A stretch of DNA of 64,000 bases from the NCBI GenBank assembly GCA_013141385.1, contig JABFRB010000016.1, positions 62,001 to 126,000 on the forward strand. The letters are read 5' to 3'. A model generated the notes under the pieces. The model did no database searches. It was not told the origin of the DNA and was given only the letters and a program-made list of their open reading frames with translations. This stretch comes from Bacteroidales bacterium (GTDB lineage: Bacteria > Bacteroidota > Bacteroidia > Bacteroidales > Tenuifilaceae). This document shows positions 5,851 through 32,190 of this stretch, piece by piece; position 1 is the first letter of the stretch, and each line of letters begins with the position of its first letter. The position numbers and the translations under genes were made by a program.

Positions 5851-6657
5851 ATGGCAAAAGTAATTGCAATTGCTAACCAAAAGGGTGGAGTTGGTAAAAC
5901 CACGACCGCTATCAATCTCGCTGCAAGTTTAGCAGTTCTAGAAAAGAAAGTACTACTTGTAGATGCCGATCCTCAGGCAAATGCAACCTCAGGAACTGGT
6001 TTTGATCTTAGAAACATCAAAACTAGCATTTATGAATGTTTGGTTGATGAAGTTAATCCCAAAGATATCATTCTGAATAGCGAGATAAAGGGACTTGATC
6101 TGATTCCATCTAACATTGATCTTGTTGGGGCTGAGATTGAAATGCTAAATCTACCCAATAGAGAAAAAATGCTAAAAGGCGTAATTGATAAGGTTAAGGA
6201 CGAATATGATTTTGTACTTATCGACTGCTCACCATCGTTAGGGCTAATCACCGTAAACGCTCTTAGCGCTGCCGATTCTGTTATGATTCCTGTTCAATGC
6301 GAGTATTTTGCGCTAGAAGGATTAGGAAAACTTCTTAATACCATTAAGATTATTCAGTCGCGCTTGAATACTGCACTTGAAATTGAAGGATTCCTACTAA
6401 CCATGTACGATGCACGTTTACGCTTATCGAATCAGGTGGTTGATGAGGTTAAAAAACATTTTCAGCAAATGGTATTCGAGACTATTATTCAGCGTAATAT
6501 CAAGCTGAGTGAGGCCCCAAGTTACGGCAAGCCTGTAATTCTTTACGACGCTGTATCTACAGGTTCAGCCAACTATGTAAACCTTGCACGTGAATTACTT
6601 CAGAGGAACAGCATGACAAAGATTAGCGGTAAGGAAAAGCAAATTAATGAGAATTAA
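5851..6657 (+). CDS. parA: ParA/Soj family chromosome-partitioning ATPase
   Basis: 268-residue deviant-Walker ATPase that binds DNA non-specifically in its ATP form and works with ParB to segregate the replication origin region. The deviant Walker A motif KGGVGKTT is at residues 11-18. VDADPQANATSG and FVLIDCSPSLG supply the other nucleotide-site motifs. The short N terminus without a helix-turn-helix is the chromosomal Soj type. It starts a four-gene operon with parB, the DUF5683 gene and a LysM lytic transglycosylase, an arrangement common in Bacteroidota. Confidence 0.95.
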   Translation: MAKVIAIANQKGGVGKTTTAINLAASLAVLEKKVLLVDADPQANATSGTGFDLRNIKTSIYECLVDEVNPKDIILNSEIKGLDLIPSNIDLVGAEIEMLNLPNREKMLKGVIDKVKDEYDFVLIDCSPSLGLITVNALSAADSVMIPVQCEYFALEGLGKLLNTIKIIQSRLNTALEIEGFLLTMYDARLRLSNQVVDEVKKHFQQMVFETIIQRNIKLSEAPSYGKPVILYDAVSTGSANYVNLARELLQRNSMTKISGKEKQINEN

Positions 6658-6686
6658 TATATTCCTTTTTAGGAGAAGACTAAGGT

Positions 6687-7583
6687 ATGAGTAAGAAAAT
6701 GGCCCTAGGGCGTGGATTAGGAGCACTAATTGAGGATGCTAACGAGCCCCAAAGAAACGAGGTGACAGAGCATCGAGTAACAAGTGAGCTGGTTAATGAG
6801 ATTGATCTTGAAAAAATTGATCTCAACCCCTACCAACCACGTACAAGTTTCGATCAAGAAGCCCTAAATGAGTTGTCTGAGTCAATAAAACGATTAGGAA
6901 TAATTCAACCTATAACCGTTCGTTCTGTTGACGGAAAGTTTCAGCTAATTTCGGGTGAACGTCGTTTACGTGCAGCTAAAATTGCTGGTCTCAAAAGAAT
7001 TCCTGCTTACATTCGTACTGCTGATGATCAGGGACTTTTGGAAATGGCTTTGGTTGAAAATATTCAGCGTGAAGATCTTGATGCCATTGAAGTTGCAATT
7101 AGCTACCAGCGTCTTATTGAGGAGTGTAGCCTTACACAGGAAAATCTTGCCGATAGGGTTGGGAAAAAGAGAGCCACTGTAGGCAACTACCTTCGATTAC
7201 TAAAACTACCTGCCGATATTCAACTTGGTATTCGCCAAACGAAACTATCCATGGGGCATGCTAGAGCCTTAATCACCATTGATGATCCTATTGCACAGCT
7301 AAAAATTTATCGTGCCATCATTGATAATGATCTATCGGTTCGAAAAACAGAGGACGAGGTTCGTGCACTCCAAGAAAAGCATCCTGAAAAATCTCAAAAA
7401 CTAAAATCAAACAAAGATCTTCCCGAAACTGAAGCTCAGCTTAAGGATCATCTAATAAATAAACTTGGTTGGGCTGCTGATATCAAAACGGGTCCAAAAG
7501 GTGATGGTAAAATCGTAATATCCTACCATAACGAAGTTGAACTACAAGAGATTATTCATAAATTTAATAGTTTGGAAGAATAA
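6687..7583 (+). CDS. parB: ParB/Spo0J/Noc family partitioning protein
   Basis: 298 residues. Binds parS sites, spreads as a CTP-dependent clamp and stimulates ParA. The N-terminal GRGLGAL motif (ParA-interacting), the CTPase/arginine patch GERRLRAAK (90-98), the ENIQREDLDAIEVA segment and a central helix-turn-helix (LTQENLADRVGKKRATVGNYLRLLKL) are all visible. A C-terminal dimerisation region follows. It begins 29 bp after parA. Confidence 0.95.
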   Translation: MSKKMALGRGLGALIEDANEPQRNEVTEHRVTSELVNEIDLEKIDLNPYQPRTSFDQEALNELSESIKRLGIIQPITVRSVDGKFQLISGERRLRAAKIAGLKRIPAYIRTADDQGLLEMALVENIQREDLDAIEVAISYQRLIEECSLTQENLADRVGKKRATVGNYLRLLKLPADIQLGIRQTKLSMGHARALITIDDPIAQLKIYRAIIDNDLSVRKTEDEVRALQEKHPEKSQKLKSNKDLPETEAQLKDHLINKLGWAADIKTGPKGDGKIVISYHNEVELQEIIHKFNSLEE

Positions 7584-25068: not shown

Positions 25069-25176
25069 CGTTAACTATTCTATTATAGAAAATTATTCTA
25101 CTACTATATTATTATGGTTGTATAATATTGAGATTCTGTTACAGAAAAAGTTTTTTATCAAAAAATAAAAAAAATT

Positions 25177-25225
25177 GTGTCACTTTTTATAGTTTTGTGG
25201 AATATATAATTGAAGGGACAAACTA
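25177..25225 (+). promoter_or_regulatory. shared promoter block, copy A (peptide gene)
   Basis: GTGTCAC (25177-25183), TTTTAT, GTTT, TGGAATATATA (25198-25208) and TGAAGGG (25211-25217) match copy B at 32143-32190 at about 40 of 49 positions with one single-base gap. GTGTCAC and the TATATA region have promoter-like spacing. A TAnnTTTG match (TAGTTTTG, 25190-25197) is present only in copy A. The peptide start codon follows 28 bp later. Confidence 0.7.
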
Positions 25226-25253: not shown

Positions 25254-25397
25254 ATGAAAACTCAAAGAAAAACTTTAGAAATGATTGCTCTTAGCATAAA
25301 TAATCAAAAAGTACTGACCAATAATCAAATGAAAAGTTTAAATGGTGGCGAGAATCTTCCAATTGGTCAAGATCCAAAAATTTATATTAAGGAATAA
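25254..25397 (+). CDS. double-glycine leader peptide (secreted peptide precursor)
   Basis: A 47-residue frame (ATG to TAA). The leader matches the double-glycine export signal: Leu at -12, Met at -7, Leu at -4, Gly-Gly at -2/-1 (KVLTNNQMKSLNGG), so a C39 peptidase should cut after residue 32. The predicted product is ENLPIGQDPKIYIKE, 15 residues, with no Cys, Ser or Thr, so it does not look like a lanthipeptide or disulfide bacteriocin and is more like a signalling peptide. A C39 ABC exporter and HlyD adaptor lie within 4 kb on the opposite strand. It has its own promoter block, shared with the TPR gene at 32431. Function of the peptide is unknown. Confidence 0.75.
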   Translation: MKTQRKTLEMIALSINNQKVLTNNQMKSLNGGENLPIGQDPKIYIKE

Positions 25398-25708
25398 TTT
25401 ACTTTCAACTAATAACTAAATTTACCAATAAACTAATTTCATGATTGTTTAAGAAAATTTTTGATGATACTTGAAAAAACATAAATTATCATGAATGATC
25501 CACACTAAATCAGAAAAAATTGTATAAGGAGTGTGGAAAATATTACCCCCTCATTATTTTCGAAAAATATAAGATTGCAAATATGTTTTCTTTTTTACTC
25601 AAACTCTACCAGGGTTTCTAACCTTGGTAGAGTTTTCTTATAATAAAACAACCTGTTTTTGGATTCTATATCTTTTACTAAAACAGTTCAGAAATCAAGT
25701 TTTTAAAT
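25398..25708. other. 311-bp gap between the peptide gene and the HlyD gene
   Basis: Holds an 8-bp-arm hairpin (TCCACACT...AGTGTGGA, about 25499-25538) and the bidirectional terminator at 25601-25635. No second double-glycine frame was found here. Confidence 0.55.
25601..25635. terminator. bidirectional terminator between peptide gene and exporter genes
   Basis: Arms AAACTCTACCA (25601-25611) and TGGTAGAGTTT (25625-25635). It separates two convergent transcription units: the peptide gene and the abc-hlyD genes. Confidence 0.8.
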
Positions 25709-32047: not shown

Positions 32048-32142
32048 TGATAAAAAAATGATTTCAAGAACCATTTTTCTATCACTACAACAGTTTGATT
32101 TTATGTTATTTAATATTTTTTTTTCAAATTGTAAAAAAAACC

Positions 32143-32190
32143 GTGTCACCTTTTATGGTTTATGGAATATATAGATGAAGGGTCATTCTA
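32143..32190 (+). promoter_or_regulatory. shared promoter block, copy B (TPR gene)
   Basis: GTGTCAC (32143-32149), TTTTAT, GTTT, TGGAATATATA (32163-32173) and TGAAGGG (32176-32182), matching copy A at 25177-25225. It is about 240 bp before the TPR gene start, so that mRNA would have a long leader. Confidence 0.7.

Follow-up and report, generated by a model that had tools for sequence, protein, structure and literature searches.

The window analysed here, a stretch of 64,000 nucleotides from a Bacteroidales genome of 5.5 Mb (contig JABFRB010000016.1; its family f1 also holds Perlabentimonas gracilis, labelled Tenuifilaceae), carries a small gene at 25254-25397 for a peptide precursor with a double-glycine (GG) leader. 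The gene lies between that of a caspase-like protease with tetratricopeptide repeats (TPR) and a CHAT domain and those of a C39-peptidase ABC exporter and its HlyD-type adaptor (Table 1). Its full product reads MKTQRKTLEMIALSINNQKVLTNNQMKSLNGG (leader) followed by ENLPIGQDPKIYIKE (predicted core). An earlier note on this DNA had claimed the frame and the leader residues, and both are present exactly as described: VLTNNQMKSLNGG shows Leu at -12, Met at -7, Leu at -4 and Gly at -2 and -1, i.e. the C39-type pattern of hydrophobic residues at -12, -7 and -4 with GG at -2/-1. The translation likewise bears out a core of 15 residues without Cys, Ser or Thr. A gene set of tiny exported peptides, TPR-CHAT protease, exporter and extracytoplasmic function (ECF) sigma factor is conserved in Bacteroidales, and the peptide may serve as the signal of an envelope circuit built from these parts.

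The 47-residue frame is confirmed as a real gene. In a congener (G002), the peptide is 85% identical and sits at the equivalent position, flanked by the CHAT and HlyD genes; the core is identical to ENLPIGQDPKIYIKE in 14 of 15 residues, the sole change being E to D at +1. The nonsynonymous and synonymous rates (dN and dS) of this comparison are 0.015 and 0.14 from codon 21 onward, and 0.063 and 0.084 over the whole gene, where the ratio is uninformative. Outside the genus, the nearest CHAT proteins (38-41% identity) belong to G005, G011 and P. gracilis (G022). The peptide of G005 (DGDGGYIIEKDPPIYIKE; locus L029, on another contig) and that of G011 (DGDPGTDITAPDTPIYIKE; two near-identical copies in L115) both end in P-x-IYIKE; between these and the peptide of the window, the N-terminal leader and the mid-core have diverged and GG and P-x-IYIKE are retained. 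The leader pattern is the same in the peptides of G002, G005 and G011, and the P. gracilis peptide has a longer core with a C-terminal PPPIVKED. The syntenic copy in the sister species and the P-x-IYIKE-ending GG peptides of two other genera thus argue that the frame is not a product of chance. When the intergenic region (695 bp) was shuffled by dinucleotides, an open reading frame (ORF) with a similar GG-leader pattern appeared in nine of 3,000 rounds. In three other congeners (G001, G003, G004), the exporter (87-89%) stands in other surroundings, with neither an orthologue of this peptide nor one of the CHAT gene beside it, so that conservation of the peptide does not simply track the exporter.

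A Pfam scan of the peptide and an Rfam scan of the window gave no match. The leader weakly resembles TIGR04149 and NF047798, two models of GG-leader peptides of Bacteroidota; unlike these, the present peptide is below the cut-off (13.6 bits against the 25 bits of NCBIfam TIGR04149), has a short Cys-free core and is accompanied by no radical SAM (rSAM) maturase in the locus. An identity as TIGR04149/rSAM-modified peptide was dropped because of the sub-threshold score and the missing maturase. Between the convergent peptide and HlyD genes, whose ends are 312 bp apart (HlyD gene end to peptide stop), an inverted repeat followed by T's (25604-25636; ACTCTACCAGGGTTTCTAACCTTGGTAGAGTTTTC) looks like a shared terminator.

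Table 1. Features of the peptide locus and of the linked TM-TPR/LytTR pair (window coordinates; TM, transmembrane; HMM, hidden Markov model)
Feature	Position	Strand	Remarks
TPR-CHAT protease, 919 aa	22254..25013	-	divergent from peptide; Pfam CHAT (PF12770) E 1.3e-49
Promoter-like element (A-tract, GTGTCAC, GGAATATATA, GAAGGG)	25151..25220	+	upstream of peptide; aligns with 32117-32185
GG-leader peptide precursor	25254..25397	+	ATG to TAA, 47 aa; predicted cut after GG32, giving ENLPIGQDPKIYIKE; G002 orthologue; P-x-IYIKE cores
HlyD-type periplasmic adaptor, 440 aa	25709..27031	-	homologues adjoin TPR-CHAT in other genera
C39-peptidase ABC exporter, 730 aa	27230..29422	-	Pfam Peptidase_C39 E 7.8e-32, ABC_membrane, ABC_tran
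Second promoter-like element copy	32117..32185	+	upstream of TM-TPR/LytTR pair; also G002 (L058:12221)
Predicted TM-TPR membrane protein, 256 aa	32431..33201	+	HMM 162 bits; Pfam TPR; structure model mbab2b670dfc8
Stand-alone LytTR DNA-binding regulator, 122 aa	33280..33648	+	Pfam LytTR E 2.8e-11

GG peptides recur beside TPR-CHAT genes across Bacteroidales. From other genomes, 123 distinct TPR-CHAT homologues were gathered, and the peptide count was made on the 108 for which 600 bp or more of upstream sequence were available. An intergenic GG-leader ORF lies at most 600 bp upstream of 77 of these 108 genes (71 of them divergent) vs 7 of 529 control genes, i.e. other genes of the same loci; the corresponding Fisher p of 7e-65 ignores kinship and overstates independence, since the 108 sequences are related. 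The sample was seeded from the window-type CHAT, with a closer CHAT set (A3) used in the contig profile scan. The GG pattern was fixed after inspection of the first loci (L140-L219 were gathered later), and identical loci shared by two collections were removed by a sequence-identity filter only. The frequency varies with CHAT length, from 74 of 85 genes for proteins of 880-1060 aa to 3 of 22 for those of 1060-1200 aa. The search pattern itself fixes -12, -7, -4, -2 and -1; at positions left free, E/D/Q is found at -8 in 113 of 129 peptides, R/K at -3 in 98/129 and D/E at +1 in 64/129. Cores are mostly 9-25 aa long (median about 15), carry a mean net charge of about -2.4 and lack Cys in 103 of 129 cases.

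Clustering of the genes around TPR-CHAT revealed four recurrent neighbour families, counted here in the 72 loci covered for 5 kb or more to either side: a TM-TPR gene within 5 kb (about 250-340 aa, one TM helix, C-terminal TPR domain; 64/72 loci), a GG peptide (53/72), an ECF sigma factor gene (52/72; Sigma70_r2 by Pfam in L112), and a C39-ABC exporter with HlyD (25/72). A near-invariant layout marks the clade L177-L218, with the TM-TPR and peptide genes divergent from CHAT, the sigma gene convergent with CHAT and overlapping it by ~27 bp, and ABC-HlyD thereafter.

The C39 exporter and HlyD adaptor reported near the peptide are indeed there. The exporter has a full C39 domain, and the catalytic residues said to be intact, Cys14 and the His and Asp after it, can be seen in its sequence. 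In a maximum-likelihood tree, all exporters of CHAT loci and that of the window form one clade (100/100), apart from the other C39 transporters of the genome, and L123 and L138 show the order peptide-ABC-HlyD on a single strand. On these two grounds the link between peptide and exporter drawn in the earlier note holds, and the neighbouring C39-ABC/HlyD system is plausible as exporter of the peptide; the note had overlooked TPR-CHAT, the constant partner. The exporter is a core gene in the genus. As sole partner of the peptide it was rejected, since G001, G003 and G004 keep it without this peptide beside it and it is present in 15 relatives without detectable TPR-CHAT.

The TPR-CHAT protein consists of an N-terminal hydrophobic signal, an array of TPR helices, the CHAT domain with His748 and Cys795, and a C-terminal TM helix. 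Both catalytic residues are invariant in 108 of 108 homologues, an N-terminal hydrophobic segment is found in 104/107 and a C-terminal TM helix in 102/107, and these two hydrophobic features predict a periplasmic, membrane-anchored protease. In Foldseek, the AlphaFold2 model (mean predicted local distance difference test, pLDDT, 84.8) has DdvA (8rw5, 8rot; best match, E 4.4e-15), Csx29 (8eex, 8d9f) and separase as closest folds; the global TM-scores are low (0.25-0.41), so the domain arrangement differs. The source genome harbors at least nine TPR-CHAT loci with different peptide cores. On contig C21 of the same genome (155-158.7 kb; L062:5200-8720), at least 12 GG-peptide genes with differing short cores are interspersed with N-terminal TPR-CHAT remnants (e.g. 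5860-6768), which suggests repeated duplication of a peptide/CHAT unit. Another locus (C1:40976-42408; L063) contains five tandem peptides above the TIGR04149 cut-off.

The peptide gene shares a promoter-like element with a second region of the window. The two copies align over ~70 bp with a score of 73 (maximum of 41 in 1,000 shuffle pairs; 32 for the best other upstream region of the window against the element), and both are conserved in G002. This second copy and the TM-TPR/LytTR pair behind it had escaped the earlier note. Across loci, the related GTGTCA precedes the GG peptide in 23 of 81 cases vs 1 of 560 control upstreams, and in the clade L177-L218 GTGTCAC is followed by a conserved CGACATGTA-type box. 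Unlike the 70-bp alignment, a short 20-mer form of the element is not specific, since with three mismatches it has seven matches in the whole genome vs five in a reversed control. A de novo search for bipartite motifs in peptide and ABC upstreams returned only A/T-rich words; GTGTCAC emerged from the peptide-side search. Loci of Ancylomarina, Marinifilum and Labilibaculum (L146-L170) encode GG peptides of 30-33 aa, often in tandem, behind a different conserved pair of upstream boxes, GGGTTAC and AAAGGGGTGTA; these may form a promoter belonging to the ECF sigma factor of these loci.

The TM-TPR protein behind the second copy is predicted to comprise a helical N-terminal part, a probable TM helix and a C-terminal TPR domain, and is homologous to the putative anti-sigma proteins encoded beside TPR-CHAT. 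These putative anti-sigma proteins have a single TM helix in 101 of 109 cases and directly follow a sigma gene in 49/109; this position, together with the layout of N-terminal domain, TM helix and TPR domain in most of them, is the reason for the putative anti-sigma label. The LytTR gene is likewise preceded by TM-TPR in G002 (97.5%) and two other genera (37-40%). GG peptide(s), TM-TPR and LytTR are consecutive genes in G011 and P. gracilis (L142, L143), with GG peptides directly preceding the homologue of the window's TM-TPR gene in L115/L142 and L143. The arrangement in the window would most simply be a split version of this peptide/TM-TPR/LytTR unit, each half having its own promoter copy. 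For the ECF sigma factor linked to CHAT, the genome encodes one good homologue (contig C23; 42%, E 4e-44); its gene overlaps a TM-TPR gene and adjoins an lptB-like ABC gene, as in G005 (L116). With this sigma/TM-TPR pair and the genes of the window, all parts of the circuit are present in the genome, on two contigs.

The reading we favor, at about even confidence, is that the 47-residue precursor gives rise to a short secreted peptide that signals to an envelope circuit of TPR-CHAT and ECF sigma factor. Its leader would be cut off after GG by the C39-ABC/HlyD exporter, which would also export ENLPIGQDPKIYIKE. In the periplasm of the producer or of neighbouring cells, this mature peptide would be sensed by the membrane-anchored TPR-CHAT protein, whose CHAT domain would then cleave single-TM anti-sigma-like proteins in their periplasmic TPR part. 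An ECF sigma factor and/or the LytTR regulator may thereby be freed; they would act at two promoters of GTGTCAC type, those of the peptide gene and the TM-TPR/LytTR pair, and thus create positive feedback. Gene order and the shared element speak for the first and the last of these steps. What the analysis shows is the set of genes and how it is conserved, the element common to both regions, catalytic residues that are intact and, by prediction, the topology; leader cleavage, ligand binding, the protease target and the regulator that uses the promoter are what we infer. The order from exporter through peptide, CHAT and TM-TPR to sigma/LytTR is favored because of the sigma-factor ties of Csx29 and DdvA and the invariant His748/Cys795. 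The earlier note had left the choice between a signalling and an antagonistic peptide; the partners (protease, putative anti-sigma, sigma factor, LytTR), the short and mostly acidic cores and the lack of an obvious dedicated immunity gene favor signalling and make a killing activity less likely.

Several observations weigh against this circuit. The 15 relatives with an exporter and no detectable TPR-CHAT are one of them. HlyD-type systems usually export to the outside of the cell, whereas the TPR domain is predicted here to be periplasmic. Of the promoter-like element, L114 and L115 retain only a recognisable TGTCAC core. Pfam and Foldseek searches with the TM-TPR protein found TPR only and no anti-sigma domain, the TM segment of the window's own copy has a low hydropathy (1.06), and the cognate sigma gene lies outside the window, on another contig. 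Furthermore, TPR-CHAT proteins of 1060-1200 aa are mostly without a GG peptide, yet many keep the sigma and TM-TPR genes, so the peptide is not required in every such circuit.

DegS is a PDZ serine protease that senses misfolded porins and, activated by peptides, cleaves the TM anti-sigma factor RseA of sigmaE. As a periplasmic, peptide-activated protease acting on a TM anti-sigma factor, it would be a model of how the proposed circuit works, and the DegS/RseA parallel has been drawn for TPR-CHAT before (PMC10028731); in contrast to DegS, the protease here is of the TPR-CHAT cysteine type and has genes for dedicated exported peptides next to it. In the type III-E Craspase (Csx29, Csx30, CASP-sigma), it is an inhibitor of a sigma factor that Csx29 cleaves (PMC10028731), and this system likewise ties a TPR-CHAT protease of matching fold to an ECF sigma factor and its inhibitor. 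However, Csx29 is cytoplasmic and RNA-activated by Cas7-11, whereas the present protein is predicted to be periplasmic and membrane-anchored and is encoded beside exported peptides; no Cas7-11 or CRISPR genes are among the recurrent neighbour clusters of TPR-CHAT. In Myxococcus xanthus, inactivation of DdvA, the signal of which is unknown, frees the ECF sigma factor DdvS (PMC4374960). DdvA is the best fold match and is also tied to an ECF sigma factor, but it is itself the transmembrane anti-sigma factor; in the present loci, TPR-CHAT and the putative anti-sigma factor are encoded by two genes, and GG peptides accompany them. CHAT genes close to ECF sigma genes are also described for ECF54-type contexts, where CHAT, subtilase and carboxypeptidase genes are found near some ECF sigma factors (PMC8999054). 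The conserved adjacency of a solo LytTR regulator and a membrane protein is shared with the LytTR Regulatory Systems HdrRM and BrsRM (PMC6193735); in the present pair, the gene order is reversed, the membrane protein is of TPR type and its inhibitor role is putative.

That the peptide is instead an antagonistic, bacteriocin-like product of the C39 system, with CHAT, sigma factor and LytTR only regulating or protecting, seems unlikely to us. GG leaders and C39 exporters often serve bacteriocins, as with the bacteroidetocins of Bacteroidota, which share the GG leader and a double-glycine-peptidase ABC exporter (PMC6671954); streptococcal bacteriocins are controlled by pairs of LytTR regulator and membrane inhibitor (PMC6193735), and peptide arrays such as that of L062 exist. 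Against this stand the cores described above, with their length, negative charge and predominant lack of Cys vs the 42-residue, four-Cys bacteroidetocins, the absence of an obvious dedicated immunity gene at the locus and the greater constancy of the protease gene relative to the exporter. Bacteroidetocins are Cys-containing toxins of 42-48 aa, most with a thiol oxidoreductase gene (PMC6671954), none of which was recognised among the neighbouring ORFs here; a bacteroidetocin identity of ENLPIGQDPKIYIKE is excluded by its 15 residues and lack of Cys. It is also rather improbable that the peptide, far from activating TPR-CHAT as a ligand, is its substrate, its inhibitor or a regulator akin to a propeptide, which would hold the protease inactive or be degraded by it. 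The genes for peptide and protease come in pairs and the peptide is conserved in its C-terminal half, a setting that would suit agonist, inhibitor and substrate alike; the promoter element common to the TM-TPR/LytTR pair suits a feedback inducer better, although a feedback inhibitor is still compatible with it. That the GG peptides and TPR-CHAT make up a conflict or kin-recognition system, with CHAT as a cell-death effector that harms the cell once activated, is very unlikely: the CHAT fold resembles separase and Csx29 and the loci are multiplied and diversified (at least nine in the genome, with different cores), but no effector-like gene is as constant at the loci as those for ECF sigma and TM-TPR, and the promoter element common to two regions speaks for transcription. 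A chance or decayed frame without product is hardly credible, for its mere 47 aa, sub-threshold NCBIfam score, uninformative whole-gene dN/dS and absence beside the exporter in G001, G003 and G004 are opposed by the syntenic orthologue, the P-x-IYIKE cores in two genera, the conserved promoter and the counts of 77/108 vs 7/529.

The presence of TPR-CHAT near ECF sigma factors is already known (ECF54; PMC8999054) and is functional in Craspase. In mostly non-subscription literature, no paper was found that connects TPR-CHAT and ECF sigma factors with either GG peptides or a C39 exporter, which is weak evidence of novelty; the combination is apparently undescribed. Tentatively, and at somewhat less than even confidence, the loci may represent a new class of extracellular signalling in Bacteroidales, in which C39-exported linear GG peptides are ligands of periplasmic TPR-CHAT proteins, and these would switch ECF-sigma and LytTR regulons by cleaving membrane anti-sigma factors. 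If so, a single cell would run several such channels in parallel, paralogous to one another but differing in their peptides. Peptide signalling is poorly known in Gram-negative Bacteroidota, and the activator of periplasmic TPR-CHAT-type proteins has so far been unknown (for DdvA, PMC4374960). For one circuit, the locus now provides candidates for the ligand, its exporter, the protease, its target and the promoter element, and tests are feasible since related gene sets are carried by named strains (Perlabentimonas gracilis, Marinifilum, Labilibaculum, Ancylomarina). Many ORFs of 30-70 aa beside CHAT genes are probably real genes.

Among the longer TPR-CHAT proteins (1060-1200 aa; 1017 aa in L201), those of L124, L125, L176, L182, L193, L201, L203 and L206 are accompanied by an ECF sigma factor and TM-TPR, with no upstream GG peptide. 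In L124 and L125, a predicted secreted protein of ~400 aa is encoded upstream of TPR-CHAT in place of the GG peptide and might be a different ligand. No more than ~6 kb from TPR-CHAT loci, genes for RimK/MvdD-type ATP-grasp proteins (L104:2579-3571; relatives in L067, L103 and L107) occur with Cys-rich, graspetide-like GG peptides.
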